The translations under genes were made by a program, and so were the position numbers. From positions 1 to 64,000 of the forward strand of contig OMWB01000002.1 in assembly GCA_900314645.1 (NCBI GenBank): 64,000 nucleotides of DNA. Direction: 5' to 3'. Within the stretch, counting starts at the first letter, position 1, and each line of letters begins with the position of its first letter. Shown here piece after piece: positions 3,604-42,761 of this stretch. Below the pieces are notes generated by a model. The model was not told the origin of the DNA, did not search any database, and saw nothing but the letters and a program-made list of their open reading frames with translations. Origin of the DNA: an uncultured Actinomycetes bacterium. Its GTDB lineage: Bacteria; Actinomycetota; Coriobacteriia; Coriobacteriales; Atopobiaceae.

Positions 3604-5160
3604 TCACACGCTGGCAAGCACGGCAAAGCTCTGGCCGGGCATTGTCAGACACCCGTCCTCAACAGACGGCTGGCCAATCTGATACACCAGCCGCTTCCCA
3701 AGGAGGAGCTCGCCCTCGTAGCGCTTTTCCTCAGATGAGGGATTGACCGCCAAGAGCAGCTCTCCCCTGCCGTACACAAACGGAGCAGCGGCCTCGTCAT
3801 CATTAATCACCGCAAACGGAGCGTCGGCCTGAAGGTCTTCGTTCGCATGACGCAGCGCAACCAGCCTGCGAACCTCCGAAAGCAAGGAGCTGTCGTCTGC
3901 TCGCTGCTCCTCAACACATGGCGCACCCTGCGACGCGTCTACCGGCAGATAGAGCTGGTCAGGCGCCGCGTTGGAAAAGCCCATGTTCTCACCGCGACTC
4001 CACTGCATGGGCGAGCGGCTACCCGTCCTCTGATAGCCACCCTCCTTGGTGCGCAGGTCAAGGTAGCGCATACCAATCTCGTCCCCGTAGTAGATGAAGG
4101 GCACGCCAGGCATGGTGAGGATGAAGGCGTAGGCAAGCTTCAGCTCTGCTGGCGAGAGCGTCCGAGCGGGACGCGGCGTGTCATGGTTGCAGGTGATGAA
4201 GCTTATGTAGCCATGCTCCCGCGTGCGCTCGTATTTGGGCAGGTAATCCTGCAAAAAGCGCCGAATGTCGCCGCCCGCGTCGCAACGGAAATAGCTGTGG
4301 TCGCCTCCCTCGGTCTCATAATCGCGCAGCAAGGTGTTGTAACCATTGCGCTGGTGGTCTAGGTAGAAGTCCATGTGGAAGCCCGCCTGACAGAGGGCCT
4401 GATCTGGATTTGACCACTCGCTGACCAACGCGGCATCGGGATAGTCGCGATCCATCATCTCGCAAATCTCTCGCCAGATGGCAGACGTCGCGCTCTTGCG
4501 CTCGTCATCGTTCTTTACCAGCGAGTCGGCCATGTCCACGCGATAGCCGTCGCAACCGGCATCCAGCCAGAAGCGCATCACGTCTTTGATAGCCTCGATG
4601 GTTGCACGAGCCTCGGGTGAGTCCGTTGCGCTCATCCAGTGCTTGTAGGGGTCCAGCCATCCGTAGTTAAGCGCAGGCTGAGAGGCGAAGAAGTTGAGCA
4701 TGTAGGCGCCAGAGCGCTCCGTCATGCCGGCAATGTACGGTCGCCCCTCCATGCCCCAGAGCGCCTCGTCGGTCCAGATATAGCGGGCGGAGTACTCGTT
4801 GGGATCGGCCTTGGCAGACTCCTTGAACCACGGATGCTGGTCGGAGGTATGGCCCGGCACAAGGTCGAGCAGAACGCGGATTCCGCGAGCATGCGCCTCG
4901 TCGAAGAGCCGTATCAGGTCCTCGTTCGTGCCGTACCTCGGTGCGACCTGCTTGTAGTCACGCACGTCGTAGCCTGCATCCATGAACGGTGAGTCAAAGC
5001 AGGGGTTGATCCACAAGGCATTGCAACCCAGTTCAGAGACGTAGTCCAGACGCTGGATGATTCCTTGCAAGTCCCCAATGCCATCGCTGTTCGAGTCTTG
5101 GAATGACTGCGGATAAATCTCGTAGAACACCGCGTCCTTCAGCCACTTTGGTCCCATCAT
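3604..5160 (-). CDS. GH13 alpha-glucosidase, cytoplasmic
   Basis: A 518-residue family GH13 enzyme without a signal peptide, expected to cleave imported malto- or isomalto-oligosaccharides to glucose. The barrel opens with VFYEIYPQSFQDSNSDGIGDL. Catalytic residues are visible as the aspartate nucleophile in GYRVDMAD, the acid/base glutamate in LVSEWSNP, and the transition-state aspartate in CNHDTPR. The C-terminus is a beta-sandwich domain (about 440-518). Start ATG at 5160 follows GGGAGGAG; the reading frame upstream of it runs through a repeat element and is not coding. It is the last gene of the operon that starts with the LacI regulator at 12845. Exact linkage specificity cannot be told from the sequence; an amylosucrase or trehalose phosphate hydrolase role is less likely. 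Confidence 0.9.
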   Translation of the reverse strand: MMGPKWLKDAVFYEIYPQSFQDSNSDGIGDLQGIIQRLDYVSELGCNALWINPCFDSPFMDAGYDVRDYKQVAPRYGTNEDLIRLFDEAHARGIRVLLDLVPGHTSDQHPWFKESAKADPNEYSARYIWTDEALWGMEGRPYIAGMTERSGAYMLNFFASQPALNYGWLDPYKHWMSATDSPEARATIEAIKDVMRFWLDAGCDGYRVDMADSLVKNDDERKSATSAIWREICEMMDRDYPDAALVSEWSNPDQALCQAGFHMDFYLDHQRNGYNTLLRDYETEGGDHSYFRCDAGGDIRRFLQDYLPKYERTREHGYISFITCNHDTPRPARTLSPAELKLAYAFILTMPGVPFIYYGDEIGMRYLDLRTKEGGYQRTGSRSPMQWSRGENMGFSNAAPDQLYLPVDASQGAPCVEEQRADDSSLLSEVRRLVALRHANEDLQADAPFAVINDDEAAAPFVYGRGELLLAVNPSSEEKRYEGELLLGKRLVYQIGQPSVEDGCLTMPGQSFAVLASV

Positions 5161-10592: not shown

Positions 10593-11798
10593 TTAGATGC
10601 ACTCGAGGTTCTTCTCGGTCTCTGGGTCAAACACGTGGACGGCATTCGGAGCGAAGGTGAACCGCACCGTCGAACCAACTGCCAACCCGCCCGCGTCGAG
10701 CTCCAACCTCGGCGCGATAATGATGCAGTCCTTCCCGTTCACGTTGACGTGAAGATGCACGGAACTACCCATCATCTCGGTGACGTCCACGACGCCCTCG
10801 ACCATGCAGCCGGGCTTCTCGTCCAGCGTGATGTGCTCGGGCCTTGCTCCGACGGTGACCTTCTGCGGCTTGGCGTTCCTATCAGCCAGGTTCTTCTGCT
10901 TCTCCTCGGAGAGGGTGATCTCGGCCCCACCCACACGAACGGCGTATTTGCCGTCCTTCAAGATGAGCTCGCCATCGAACAGGTTCATCTGGGGCATGCC
11001 AATGAATCCTGCGACAAACAGGTTAACGGGGTGGTCGAACACCTGCTGAGGTGTGCCAATCTGCTGCACGTCGCCATCCTTCATGATGACGATGCGATCA
11101 CCAAGGGTCATTGCCTCGGTCTGGTCATGCGTGACGTAGATGAAGGTGGCGTTCAGGCGCGACCTCAGCTTGATAATCTCGGCGCGCATCTGGTTGCGGA
11201 GCTTTGCGTCCAGGTTTGACAGGGGCTCGTCCATCAGGAGCACCTGAGGGTCGCGCACGATGGCACGGCCGATGGCTACGCGCTGACGCTGGCCGCCCGA
11301 CAAGGCCTTGGGTTTACGGGGCAGGTAGGGAGTGATGCCAAGGACGTCGGCAGCCCACTCGACCTTGCGATCCTTCTCCTCCTTGGAGATGTTTCTAATG
11401 TCCAGCGGGAACTCAAGGTTCTGGCGTACGGTCATGTGGGGATACAAGGCGTAGTTCTGGAAAACCATGGCAATGTCGCGGTCCTTGGGATCCACGTTGT
11501 TAACCAGCTGCCCATTGATGTAGAGCTCGCCTCTGGTGATGTCCTCGAGACCGGCAATCATGCGAAGCGTCGTCGACTTTCCGCAGCCCGAGGGGCCAAC
11601 GAAGACGATGAACTCCTTGTCCGCGATCTCAAGGTTGAAGTCGTCCACAGCCACGACGCCTTCGTCAGTAATCTTGAGATTTGAGGGCTTCTTTTTCTCG
11701 GGCTCGTCACCCTTCTTCTTTTTCTTCTTCCGGTCCTCCTTGTCCTCATCCCTCATTGGGTAAATCTTTTGGACGTGCCTCAAGCTCAAGGTTGCCAA
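10593..11798 (-). CDS. ABC transporter ATPase, MsmK/UgpC family
   Basis: A 401-residue ATPase that energises the MalFG channel. Walker A is GPSGCGKST, the signature is LSGGQRQRVAIGRA, Walker B is VLLMDEPLSNLD with the D-loop, and the switch histidine is in YVTHDQTEA. Residues about 235-400 form the regulatory OB-fold domain of the CUT1 ATPases. An oddity is a lysine-rich insertion at about residues 15-45 (KKKKKKGDEP then EKKKPSNLKI), placed between the first strand and the A-loop region of the usual fold, which lengthens the protein beyond the typical 360-375 residues. The gene follows the LacI gene by 15 bases and precedes malE, so each importer part is encoded together. Confidence 0.93.
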   Translation of the reverse strand: MATLSLRHVQKIYPMRDEDKEDRKKKKKKGDEPEKKKPSNLKITDEGVVAVDDFNLEIADKEFIVFVGPSGCGKSTTLRMIAGLEDITRGELYINGQLVNNVDPKDRDIAMVFQNYALYPHMTVRQNLEFPLDIRNISKEEKDRKVEWAADVLGITPYLPRKPKALSGGQRQRVAIGRAIVRDPQVLLMDEPLSNLDAKLRNQMRAEIIKLRSRLNATFIYVTHDQTEAMTLGDRIVIMKDGDVQQIGTPQQVFDHPVNLFVAGFIGMPQMNLFDGELILKDGKYAVRVGGAEITLSEEKQKNLADRNAKPQKVTVGARPEHITLDEKPGCMVEGVVDVTEMMGSSVHLHVNVNGKDCIIIAPRLELDAGGLAVGSTVRFTFAPNAVHVFDPETEKNLECI

Positions 11799-14593: not shown

Positions 14594-14839
14594 GTCGCAC
14601 CGCCTTTCCTCGCATCCCACCATGGCATGGCGGTGACGCAATGTCCACGACAGCCCCTGAGAGTCGCCATCTACCTGCATATTCTCGCATAGTGAGACGG
14701 GACCACAAGGTCCGACCCTCTGGTTCGGAGGATGCCCAAGTGTACATCCTGGTGCGTCTATTCGGGCTCTCTCAGGAAAGACCGAGTTCCTTCGACAGCG
14801 TGCACACTTTCCGCATCGAACAGCCGCTAAACGCGGACT

Positions 14840-15841
14840 CTACCCCAGCCGGTCGTGATTGATGGGGAGCTGGAACAGCTTCCCCAGCTGGTGTTGGCCG
14901 CTTGCCACCCCGCACGCCCACATCGTCTTGGCCACGAGCGCCTCAACGGTCATATCGTCGCCCAAGAGAATGCCCGGGTGCTCCGCATACGCGCGACCAA
15001 CCTCATAGATGCCGAGGTCGAGCCCCTCCTCGGGCACCTGTGTGGTCAGCACCAACGTATGCCCCGCATCCACCCAGCTGAAGAGCGTCTCCTCAAAGCC
15101 GTCTGGAATGCCACCGATACCAAAGGTCTCAAGAATCACGGCAGAGCTCGCACCTGCAAGCGCGCTAAACACCTCCGGGCCCAACCCAGGAGTCAGCTTC
15201 AGCACCACCACGCGTTCGTCCAGACGGTGATAGAAGGTCGGACGGTCTGACCCCTGTGTAAGGAGGCCGCCACCCAACTCGCGCACCACGCGATCGCCTC
15301 GTATGAGCGCCGCAAGCGGCCAGTTCACACTGGTAAAGGCGTTGTAACTCATCGTGCGCTGCTTGTGGGCACGGGTTCCCACAATCACCTTGCCGTCGAA
15401 CACCACATGTACGTCACGCGCCGCATCGTCACACGCCCACAACAGGCTCTGATACAGGTTGAGCTTGGCGTCAGTGAAGGGCGCGCTCATAGGCTGCTGG
15501 GACCCGGTAAGCACGATGGGCTTGGGACTTCCCTGCACCAGATACGAAAGCGCCGCTGCCGTATAGGCCATCGTATCGGTCCCATGGAGCACGACGAAGC
15601 CATCGTAATCGTCGTAGGCGCGCTCAATCTCTGCCGCAATAGCCAACCAACCCGACGGATGCATGTTGGTCGAGTCAATGTTCATGGGTTGCACCACGTC
15701 GATGATGCAGAGGTCCTCGACGAGCGGCACGCGCGCAACCAGCTCGGCTCCGGTAAGCACCGGGGCAAGTCCACCCGCACCATCCTCTGTCGGCAGGGAG
15801 GCGATAGTACCACCTGTGGCTATGACCAGAATGCGCTTCAT
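14840..15841 (-). CDS. ansA: L-asparaginase, type I (cytoplasmic)
   Basis: A 333-residue asparaginase that hydrolyses asparagine to aspartate and ammonia. The first catalytic threonine lies in IATGGTIAS at the N-terminus and the second in VLHGTDTMAYTAAALS (around residue 90), with a conserved lysine further on. No signal peptide is present, so it is the low-affinity cytoplasmic form. Start ATG at 15841 is preceded by AGGGGAAAC; an upstream extension to 15874 is rejected. It appears monocistronic, between the XRE gene and a divergent membrane-protein gene. Glutaminase side activity cannot be judged from sequence. Confidence 0.92.
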   Translation of the reverse strand: MKRILVIATGGTIASLPTEDGAGGLAPVLTGAELVARVPLVEDLCIIDVVQPMNIDSTNMHPSGWLAIAAEIERAYDDYDGFVVLHGTDTMAYTAAALSYLVQGSPKPIVLTGSQQPMSAPFTDAKLNLYQSLLWACDDAARDVHVVFDGKVIVGTRAHKQRTMSYNAFTSVNWPLAALIRGDRVVRELGGGLLTQGSDRPTFYHRLDERVVVLKLTPGLGPEVFSALAGASSAVILETFGIGGIPDGFEETLFSWVDAGHTLVLTTQVPEEGLDLGIYEVGRAYAEHPGILLGDDMTVEALVAKTMWACGVASGQHQLGKLFQLPINHDRLG

Positions 15842-30274: not shown

Positions 30275-30396
30275 AGGTGATTCCCTTCTCTACAGCACAG
30301 ATGGTACCGCAGCTTTAGGACGGGCGCATGGGACCCCCGCCACTCGCCCGCCCAAAACGAGCGCTCGCGGTGTTGATACGGTGGATATGACACCTG

Positions 30397-40090: not shown

Positions 40091-40405
40091 ATGAAGAAGA
40101 GCCGCATTACAAGAAGACAGCGCTACCTAGACCTCGATGCCCGTTTTGGCCTGAGGTTGGCTGCAATTCGCGAAGAAATGGGGCTTTCGCAAGATCAGGT
40201 TGCCCAGGCGATGCGCTTTGTCCGTCCCGTGGTAAGCAAGATCGAGCACGGACAACGCGCTCTCACAGCACTCGAGATTTGCGATTACGCACGTGCCCTG
40301 AACGTCGAACCGGAGTTGCTTTTCGACGAGCTTAAGCATGTCGTGTTTGAATACGACACTTCCCCGCAGTCAGTGTCCGATGAACATGCCGAGAGCGTGT
40401 CTTAA
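40091..40405 (+). CDS. XRE-family transcriptional regulator
   Basis: A 104-residue protein with a single Cro/CI-type helix-turn-helix: FGLRLAAIREEMGLSQDQVAQAMRFVRPVVSKIEHGQRALTALEI (about residues 15-60), then a short acidic tail. The start ATG at 40091 lacks a strong RBS, and a second ATG at 40046 would place the operator inside the coding region; a leaderless or overlapping arrangement is possible. It is convergent with the ABC-F gene, whose stop lies within its end. No adjacent toxin gene is seen, so a simple repressor role is assumed. Confidence 0.8.
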   Translation: MKKSRITRRQRYLDLDARFGLRLAAIREEMGLSQDQVAQAMRFVRPVVSKIEHGQRALTALEICDYARALNVEPELLFDELKHVVFEYDTSPQSVSDEHAESVS

Positions 40406-42081
40406 TCTCGCGTCAGCTTGCGATGCAGGCGATGCGGCTTGGCCGCTTCGGCGCCAAGACGCTTGATCTTGTCCTTCTCGTAGCTCTCAAAGTTGCCTTC
40501 AAACCAGTGCCAGCGTCCAGGCTCCTCGTCGGTTCCCTCCCACGCCAGGATGTGCGTGGCGATGCGGTCAAGGAACCAGCGGTCGTGACTGGTGATGACG
40601 GCGCATCCCGGGAAGGCGATGAGCGCCTCCTCAAGGCTCTCGAGGGTCTCCACATCGAGGTCGTTGGTTGGCTCGTCAAGCAGCAGCACATTGCCGCCCT
40701 GCTTCAGCGTCAACGCAAGGTTGAGTCGGTTGCGCTCGCCGCCCGAAAGCACGCCCGCGCGCTTTTGCTGGTCTTGTCCCTTAAAGCCAAAACTCGCCAC
40801 GTACGCGCGGCTCGGAATCTCCGTCTTCCCCACCTGAAGCGTGTCAAGACCGCCTGAGACTACCTCCCAGAGCGTCTTGTCAGGATCGAGGCCAGCACGC
40901 GTCTGATCAACATAAGAGATGGTTACCGTCTCGCCAATCTCAAGCGTACCGGAATCAACCGGCTCTTGGCCCATGATCATCTTGAAGAGCGTCGTCTTGC
41001 CCACGCCGTTGGGGCCAATCACGCCCACGATGCCGTTGCGCGGCAGGTCGAAGGAGAGGTCGTCAATCAACACACGGTCACCGAAGGCCTTGTGCAGATG
41101 CTTTGCCTGAATGACCTTGTTGCCTAGGCGCGGACCGGCAGGAATCTGAATCTCTGAGAAGTCGAGCTTGCGCGTCCGTTCCGCCTCGGCAGCCATCTGC
41201 TCATAGCGCTCAAGACGCGCCTTGTTCTTTGCCTGGCGTGCCTTGGGGCTGCTGCGGACCCAGTCAAGCTCGGCACGCAGTTTCTTGGCGCGCTTCGCGT
41301 CCTGCTGTCCCTGCATCTCAAGGCGCTTTGCCTTGGTCTCAAGGTAGGTGGAGTAGTTGCCCTCGTACGGGTACAGACGACCGCGGTCAACTTCGCAGAT
41401 CCACTGCGCGACGTTGTCCAAGAAGTAGCGGTCGTGCGTCACGGCAAGCACCGCTCCAGGGTAATTGTGCAGGAACTGCTCGAGCCAGAGCACGCTTTCG
41501 GCATCCAGGTGGTTAGTCGGCTCGTCCAAAAGCAGCAAATCTGGCGCCTCGAGCAACAGGCGACACAAGGCAACGCGACGACGCTCGCCTCCTGACAGCA
41601 CGCTCACCGGCGCGTCAGGATCGGGGCACTGCAGGGCGTCCATCGCCTGTGAGAGCTGGCTCTCAAGATCCCAGCCGTTTGCCGCATCAATCTCGTCCTG
41701 CAGACGTCCCATCTCTTCCATGAGGGCATCGAAGTCTGCATCGGGGTCAGCCATCTCCTCACCGATAGCATTGAAGCGGTCCACCTTTGCGATGGTGTCG
41801 GCAAAGGCCTGCTCGATGTTCTGGATGACGGTCTTGTCCTCATCAAGCGGAGGCTCTTGCTGCAGGATTCCCACCGTGTATCCTGGGGACAGTCTCGCCT
41901 CGCCTGCCGTCACTTCCTCCATGCCAGCCATGACCTTCAGAAGCGTGGTCTTTCCCATCCCGTTGGGGCCAACCACACCGATCTTTGCGCCAGGGAAGAA
42001 TCCCATCGTGACGTCATCAAGGATTACCTTATCCCCATGCGCCCTGCGCGCACGATACATTTGGTAGATGAACTCTGCCAT
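40402..42081 (-). CDS. ettA: ABC-F ribosomal ATPase, EttA-like
   Basis: A 559-residue soluble protein with two ABC domains and no membrane part. Walker A motifs are GPNGMGKTT (about residue 40) and GPNGVGKTT (about 355); signatures are LSGGERRRVALCR and LSGGERNRLNLAL; both Walker B are followed by DEPTNHLD/DEPTNDLD. The linker carries the basic P-site tRNA interaction motif (TKAKRLEMQGQQDAKRAKKLRAEL). The length, the N-terminal EFIYQMYRARRAHGDKVIL and the arm match EttA, which gates ribosome entry into elongation in response to ATP. Start ATG at 42081 follows GGGAG. Confidence 0.93.
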   Translation of the reverse strand: MAEFIYQMYRARRAHGDKVILDDVTMGFFPGAKIGVVGPNGMGKTTLLKVMAGMEEVTAGEARLSPGYTVGILQQEPPLDEDKTVIQNIEQAFADTIAKVDRFNAIGEEMADPDADFDALMEEMGRLQDEIDAANGWDLESQLSQAMDALQCPDPDAPVSVLSGGERRRVALCRLLLEAPDLLLLDEPTNHLDAESVLWLEQFLHNYPGAVLAVTHDRYFLDNVAQWICEVDRGRLYPYEGNYSTYLETKAKRLEMQGQQDAKRAKKLRAELDWVRSSPKARQAKNKARLERYEQMAAEAERTRKLDFSEIQIPAGPRLGNKVIQAKHLHKAFGDRVLIDDLSFDLPRNGIVGVIGPNGVGKTTLFKMIMGQEPVDSGTLEIGETVTISYVDQTRAGLDPDKTLWEVVSGGLDTLQVGKTEIPSRAYVASFGFKGQDQQKRAGVLSGGERNRLNLALTLKQGGNVLLLDEPTNDLDVETLESLEEALIAFPGCAVITSHDRWFLDRIATHILAWEGTDEEPGRWHWFEGNFESYEKDKIKRLGAEAAKPHRLHRKLTRD

Positions 42082-42123
42082 TACAAACTCCCTCGCTGAG
42101 TGCCTCGTCTGCAACAAGTCCAT

Positions 42124-42345
42124 TGTACGGGAAGAATACGTAAGGTCTAAGACCTCCTTACCTCAAATTTAAATAAACACGAGGTAAAACGGCCTGTTTT
42201 CAAAACATGCCAAAATGTCTCAAGAAAACGTGTAAAACGAGTGATTTTGAGATGTTTTTAAATAAACAGCAGGTAAACCATAGTATTCCACAGTAATGCT
42301 CAAATACTTAACAAAAGCAAATGACCGCTCACCGCCATATATGCC
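42124..42345. promoter_or_regulatory. AT-rich region with 23-bp direct repeats
   Basis: This stretch is much richer in A and T than its surroundings. A 23-bp repeat with TTTAAATAAACA and AGGTAAA occurs at 42168-42190 and 42257-42279 (21 of 23 identical). The first copy also lies in a TTACCTC/GAGGTAA inverted repeat (42158-42187), and TCTCAA/TTTGAGA pair between the copies. It lies between ettA (minus) and the candidate RNA (plus), so it is a regulatory or curved promoter region. No gene is seen here. Confidence 0.6.
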
Positions 42346-42394
42346 CCTCTCGCGAAACGTCCTTGTAACAGTGACCTTCTTGGGTTATCTTCAC

Positions 42395-42761
42395 ATCAAG
42401 CAAAGGAACTCGACGAGATCGAGACGACCAAGGGGGTGATGCCAATGGGCTCAGAAATCATAGCAGGGCGTTCCGCGGTTGGCATCGCGAGTCCCGTTTC
42501 TCTCCGGTAGTCCTCAGTAGCTAGGACATGTTGAGCGGCACAGGCGCCGCAGAGCCAGACAGAGTCGGTAAACGGATGTACCAATGCCACCGCGTAGAAT
42601 CCCAGAGCGCCACCCGATGAGGCGCTGTAGCACCACCAGACATTCTGAGTCTGAAGAGTCCCGTTCCTACAGAGGTGAAAAGGAATTCCAGTGGACTAGA
42701 TGAGCCCAAGAAGGGCACTAAGCGACTCGGGCGGGCGACCGAAAGGTCGCCCGCTTTTTGT
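42395..42761 (+). ncRNA. candidate structured non-coding RNA
   Basis: About 365 bases with no credible reading frame. It starts after a possible promoter (TTGTAA, 17-base gap, TATCTT at about 42363-42390). It has paired segments such as GATGCCAA/TTGGCATC (42438-42486), GCGGC/GCCGC near 42540, AGCGCC/GGCGCT near 42610, and ends with the strong terminator GCGGGCGACC-GAAA-GGTCGCCCGC followed by TTTTTG (42730-42761). It did not match my memory of tmRNA, RNase P, SRP, 6S or a known riboswitch. A minus-strand ORF in the same place has no RBS. Identity unknown. Confidence 0.55.
42730..42761 (+). terminator. Rho-independent terminator of the candidate RNA
   Basis: A GC-rich stem around a GAAA tetraloop (GGCGACC-GAAA-GGTCGCC core) followed by a five-T tract. 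On the minus strand it could also end the small-protein gene at 42820, but the U-tract favours the plus strand. Confidence 0.88.

Follow-up and report, generated by a model that had tools for sequence, protein, structure and literature searches.

A conserved structured RNA gene of the Coriobacteriales with a short internal reading frame and a LytTR-type repeat upstream of its promoter

What kind of gene occupies the roughly 365 nt beyond an ABC-F-like ATPase gene in the 64,000-nt stretch of an Atopobiaceae genome analysed here (the window)? An earlier note, made from the letters alone, had proposed a structured noncoding RNA that stands alone between a promoter and a terminator, and the comparison with related genomes bears this out, as the whole unit is kept in relatives and its pairs covary. 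The plus-strand interval 42394-42759 is a stand-alone RNA gene, with a promoter, a structured body and an intrinsic terminator (Table 1), and we see hardly any room for doubt that this gene is real and that its structured RNA is conserved.

Table 1. Features of the RNA locus and its surroundings (window coordinates).
Feature	Position	Strand	Basis or remark
ABC-F-like ATPase (named by eye), leftward neighbour	40402-42123	-	gene list of the window
Upstream box 1, ACCGCTCAC, LytTR-type direct repeat	42324-42332	+	21-bp-period repeat conserved in relatives
Upstream box 2, CCCTCTCGC, degenerate copy	42345-42353	+	two mismatches to the pair pattern
Promoter TTGTAA - 17 bp - TATCTT	42363-42391	+	position and spacing kept in relatives
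RNA gene	42394-42759	+	~365 nt; relatives and model R1
P1, 5' hairpin	42409-42413 with 42419-42423	+	covariation
Motif A, extended Shine-Dalgarno AAGGGGGUGAU and spacer	42430-42444	+	G-rich core nearly invariant
Short frame ATG...TAG, MGSEIIAGRSAVGIASPVSLR	42445-42510	+	21 codons; stop 42508-42510
PX, long-range helix	42471-42478 with 42590-42594 and 42597-42599	+	overlaps the reading frame
PX extension	42481-42487 with 42582-42588	+	88% paired, 2 double-changed pairs
P5, closes the junction	42494-42499 with 42570-42575	+	comparative alignment
P3, hairpin in P5 junction	42510-42514/42523-42527	+	comparative alignment
P4, hairpin in P5 junction	42535-42539/42546-42550	+	comparative alignment
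P6, hairpin in P5 junction	42554-42556/42567-42569	+	comparative alignment
P7, hairpin AGCGCC...GGCGCT	42606-42611/42621-42626	+	both arms change between clades (read by eye)
Motif B region	42679-42696	+	AAGGAATTCCAGTGGACT in the window; GGUGANUCCAAAG... in most relatives
Intrinsic terminator	42729-42759	+	present in most relatives

The promoter boxes TTGTAA (42363-42368) and TATCTT (42386-42391) agree with the consensus at 8 of 12 positions, and they are absent from the list of our consensus promoter scan because this count falls below its threshold of 9. The pair singled out in the earlier note nevertheless recurs at the same position in relatives from the genus, likewise with a spacing of 17 bp, and transcription is predicted to start at about 42397-42399. 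Such a modest consensus match would be as expected for a weak, activator-dependent promoter. The strong GAAA-loop terminator was also correctly recognized; its hairpin (42729-42756) has a 12-pair stem followed by a U-tract, and a similar hairpin ends the RNA in most relatives. In the window, the farther genes past the RNA locus are on the minus strand, as is the leftward neighbour.

A DNA search of 60 related genomes returned copies that are 70-95% identical within the genus, plus weaker matches from two other genera, and a profile made from these copies recovered additional relatives. Scanning named genomes for the pattern yielded Olsenella profusa, O. phocaeensis, O. intestinalis, Parafannyhessea umbonata and an Atopobium sp., together with many rumen MAGs (~40 pattern-scan finds were confirmed as relatives). 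A covariance model built on 41 sequences (R1) matches the window copy, which is one of its own sequences, with E = 2e-49. All the full-length relatives that it detects (E below 1e-18) belong to the Atopobiaceae, the family from which the window comes. The weaker matches of R1 are real distant relatives from other Atopobiaceae genera and from a second Coriobacteriales family (labelled f10); they have in common the 5' hairpin, the ribosome-binding site, the short frame, the long-range helix that overlaps this frame, a 3' motif and the terminator. Model R2, which represents the 5' module (76 positions), matches 119 of the 398 genomes of the class, all in these two families barring three weak third-family matches. 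Among 396 genomes of the phylum, one other match appeared at E <= 1e-6, a partial one (G445, model positions 8-53, E = 3.8e-7) that is rejected as a family member and is probably a chance ribosome-binding site. Judged by these matches, the family is confined to two Coriobacteriales families in the genomes searched. Most genomes have one copy and a few have two. In one relative (L137, G274:C1), two good copies ~10.7 kb from each other flank a third one that is degenerate and has a tandem repeat, GGGAGCCTCCCCAACAAA, in place of its 5' part (matches at locus positions 4030-4231, 10734-10861 and 14774-14975, minus strand).

The absence of a match to known classes, for which the earlier note had proposed an Rfam scan as a check, is upheld. 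At gathering cut-offs, Rfam 15 contains no family that matches the RNA locus in the window or 16 relatives, and a permissive scan gave only chance matches for the interval (Xoo2 and CsrC) and, in the 16 relatives, nothing above chance. RNase P RNA class A (RF00010) is encoded elsewhere in the genome (G000:C19:45473-45838, 282.8 bits) with none at the locus, while the best 6S RNA (RF00013) candidate, also elsewhere (G000:C40:28108-28266, minus strand), scores 30.3 bits, which is below the curated cut-off. The only Rfam gathering match in the window, unrelated to the RNA locus, is a lysine riboswitch aptamer at 1848-2016 on the minus strand (81.5 bits). We found no literature on such an RNA. The candidate structured RNAs of two studies that mention Collinsella (PMC2864571, PMC8040213) are the same kind of object, likewise derived from comparative genomics; those of their motifs that are in Rfam give no match here, whereas thousands of unnamed PMC8040213 candidates lie outside this comparison, and an anonymous candidate from a human-gut relative may correspond to the RNA. 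We take it to be a real, new family, previously uncatalogued, and probably a dual-function regulatory RNA.

Folding of the single sequence gives z = -2.0 on the plus strand and z = -3.4 on the opposite strand. Because this energy is mild, and lower still on the other strand, the case for an RNA rests on conservation and covariation. Across the 41 sequences, 87% of the cells in the proposed helices are paired and 23 pairs have changed on both sides, counts that are favoured by deriving the structures from the same alignments. The covariation score of these sequences is 0.292, compared with 0.167 after shuffling (0/500) and 0.036-0.090 when the partners are slid. P1 has two-sided changes at 5/5 modelled pairs in 68 sequences from both families (covariation score 0.456 vs. 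0.218 shuffled, 0/500). The strongest helix is PX, with 8 pairs of which 6 have changed on both sides and with 95% of cells paired; the counterpart of PX in the second family is double-changed at 9 of its 12 pairs (covariation 0.262 vs. 0.150 shuffled). Given the large margin and the independent second family, an alignment artefact would be an unlikely source of the helices. The count for P3 is lowered by a one-column misalignment in the window's clade. The earlier note had named a loss of both sequence and pairing among near relatives as evidence against an RNA; no such loss was observed, and the sequence and the covarying pairs are kept.

Of the two internal stems pointed out previously, AGCGCC/GGCGCT is recovered as P7. 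The other, GATGCCAA/TTGGCATC, is present (42438-42445/42479-42486), but the comparison favours another partner for TTGGCATC, and the stem would be at most an alternative pairing. A pseudoknot, P2 (GUGAUGCC/GGCAUCGC), was rejected; 98.5% of its cells pair, but it has no double-changed pair. Five sequences have an A that disrupts P2, and the nested partner (97-103/208-214), which has two covarying pairs, remains intact in them. P2 could possibly be an alternative state. Motif B resembles motif A without its start codon and is poorly preserved in the window's clade. In the 3' domain of five relatives (L033, L045, L052, L058, L076), motif B gains a start codon, which opens a second frame of 13 codons (e.g., MGSQEESHEATEV).

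The most conserved unpaired stretch of the RNA, AAGGRGGUGRU, precedes NCC and a start codon. In nearly all relatives this motif A is the top site for the 3' tail of 16S rRNA (best 14-nt match, -16 to -21 kcal/mol, calculated with an assumed, universal tail sequence rather than this genome's own). The interval had been described as lacking coding potential, which does not hold, since the ribosome-binding site and the 21-codon frame behind it are among the best conserved parts. The frame starts with ATG, GTG or TTG in all listed relatives, the first base is never C in the set, and its length is 17-26 codons in most of them. It is conserved as a feature and only weakly as a peptide; pN/pS is 0.63-0.89, a weak purifying signal that is not in every case better than that of other frames. 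Some members of one clade have indels that shift the frame after approximately codon 8 and leave the pairing intact. An N-terminus M-[NGYD]-[ST]-E recurs, as does FGP[AV] with synonymous changes in the second family. From these patterns the frame is likely to be translated, and the simplest reading would be that being translated matters more than the peptide, for which a function is possible. In a further relative (L186, G380:C22), a gene for a short, rubredoxin-like (by eye) protein, MGSEEKTYTFRCTVCGWEYE..., at locus position ~509 is nearly the same as motif A over its ribosome-binding site and first codons.

Upstream of the promoter lies a LytTR-type direct repeat that the earlier note had missed. 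Its form is ACCGYTCGC-N12-ACCGYTCGC, with a period of exactly 21 bp; box 2 begins 12 bp after box 1, ends 9 bp before the -35 box, and is degenerate in relatives from the genus as it is in the window. In a scan of 58 non-redundant upstream regions, the mean best pair score is 29.5 at period 21, vs. 21.3-23.4 at the other periods from 10 to 40 and ~19.5 for shuffled sequences; the box motif was picked from the same sequences as were scored, while the period was not built into the score. Both boxes are inverted in one clade. Promoters of the LytTR family have 9-bp direct repeats separated by 12 bp and located ~10 bp before the -35 box (PMC6193735). The sites of AgrA, ComE, HdrR and BrsR share this layout with the repeat described here (PMC6193735) and differ from it in the box itself, which is ACCGYTCGC here and is degenerate in its second copy in the window. 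LytTR proteins are encoded by the source genome (4) and by 391 of the 398 genomes of the class, and because they are nearly universal, their presence or co-occurrence is uninformative as to the regulator of the RNA. Based on the position and period of the repeat, we lean towards LytTR control of the RNA gene.

Genome-wide, the repeat pattern is not enriched over a reversed control. A genome-wide LytTR regulon was rejected, its count being no higher than that of the control, and sites near sugar-uptake operons are leads only. A second copy of the direct repeat in the window, with two mismatches (30339-30368, plus strand), is flanked by a LacI-like regulator on one side and a PTS-like sugar-uptake operon on the other (names by eye), and perfect copies in another genome (G212) flank a locus similar to it. 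A palindrome (e.g., TGTACA-N8-TGTACA) is found ~15-40 bp ahead of the -10 box in one clade (L043, L069, L073, L134 and others), where it overlaps the -35 region and suggests a second DNA-binding regulator.

An independent transcription unit, a conserved fold, a repeat with a 21-bp period and a strong ribosome-binding site with a frame of ~20 codons are all shown by the comparison. By a modest preference, we read them as a LytTR-activated, ribosome-engaging and probably dual-function regulatory RNA of a new family. A LytTR-family regulator would bind the direct repeat and recruit RNA polymerase to an otherwise weak promoter, and the RNA would then fold behind its own 5' hairpin, P1. A ribosome would load on motif A and translate the short frame. 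Because this frame contains the 5' strand of PX, which closes the core, translation and a closed core would be mutually exclusive, giving two forms of the RNA, one translated and open and the other untranslated and closed. One of the forms would act in trans on other RNAs or on ribosomes, which it would probably pair with or titrate; this step is modelled on dual-function RNAs such as RNAIII or SgrS, and action in trans is proposed tentatively. It is doubtful, although conceivable, that the fold is itself a switch thrown by translation of the leader frame, in which ribosome loading on the extended Shine-Dalgarno would open the core helix and the LytTR-controlled RNA would report translational capacity, acting either in trans or, by way of motifs A and B, on ribosomes.

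Several other explanations bear on the dual-function reading. The locus could be the gene of a micropeptide of ~20 residues, with the RNA serving as a structured, stabilising mRNA with no function of its own. The strong ribosome-binding site, the valid start and stop in nearly all relatives and the recurring residues favour such a gene, but the purifying signal is slight, the frame shifts past codon 8 in part of one clade where the RNA pairing is kept, and two thirds of the transcript, with a covarying fold, lie downstream of the stop; we consider it unlikely. Less probable still is a decoy or sponge that would occupy 30S subunits through pairing of the 16S rRNA tail with motif A and with motif B, which is close to the 3' end. 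In nearly all relatives no site matches this tail, taken as the universal sequence, better than motif A, and motif B often comes next. Against a decoy, much of the second family has an interruption (GGAGGCGAG) in the complementarity that extends past GGAGG, the window's clade has a degraded motif B, and a decoy would need no conserved start codon.

A leader-like frame that overlaps a long-range helix and is followed by an intrinsic terminator also recalls an attenuator with a leader peptide, acting in cis on a downstream gene. Synteny disfavours this, as the clustered gene neighbourhoods of 41 loci differ between clades, with the downstream gene on either strand and often, including in the window, on the opposite one. 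The neighbours of distant relatives are likewise variable, and no conserved same-strand downstream gene, by which a cis-acting leader or attenuator is recognized, was found at the 41 loci or in the distant relatives. Since the neighbour genes vary by clade, the RNA is not cis-regulatory on this evidence, and we regard a leader as very improbable. A diverged housekeeping RNA (RNase P, tmRNA, 6S or SRP) would be similar in length and would likewise be a stand-alone gene, usually in single copy. With RNase P RNA encoded elsewhere at 283 bits, no tmRNA found by ARAGORN in the 64,000-nt window and no Rfam match in relatives, it is the least credible of the alternatives, and identity with 6S RNA is unlikely because a better candidate lies elsewhere in the genome.

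For the preferred dual-function RNA, the working parallel would be RNAIII or SgrS. RNAIII of Staphylococcus aureus, the effector of agr, encodes delta-haemolysin; it is a stand-alone, structured RNA of several hundred nt that has a terminator of its own and contains a short frame, and LytTR-type (AgrA) direct repeats precede its promoter. The RNA described here resembles it in being stand-alone and structured, in its terminator, in its short frame and in the LytTR-type repeat upstream of the promoter. Unlike RNAIII, it has no sequence or Rfam relationship beyond chance-level matches below the gathering cut-off, its peptide is not haemolysin-like, and no counterpart of the C-rich target loops is demonstrated in the window RNA. 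No match to the AgrB protein was found in the source genome, and an agr system behind the RNA was rejected on this ground. SgrS and Spot 42 are dual-function sRNAs of enterobacteria, stand-alone and with a short translated frame; this RNA, probably also regulatory, is similar in being stand-alone and in having a short frame, here predicted to be translated, whereas SgrS and Spot 42 are shorter and Hfq-dependent and have other structures and regulators. A link of the present RNA to carbon metabolism is only a lead. Membership in the family of RNAIII or SgrS is not claimed, because there is no homology and no AgrB.

The gene lies outside all Rfam families, yet it is present as one copy in most sampled genomes of several genera (Olsenella, Parafannyhessea and relatives), which are common actinobacteria of the gut and mouth. 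If the proposed reading is true, these bacteria would own an RNAIII-like effector without an agr system, and the structure of the RNA would be coupled to translation of its internal frame. As the relatives include cultured strains, this prediction is directly testable.
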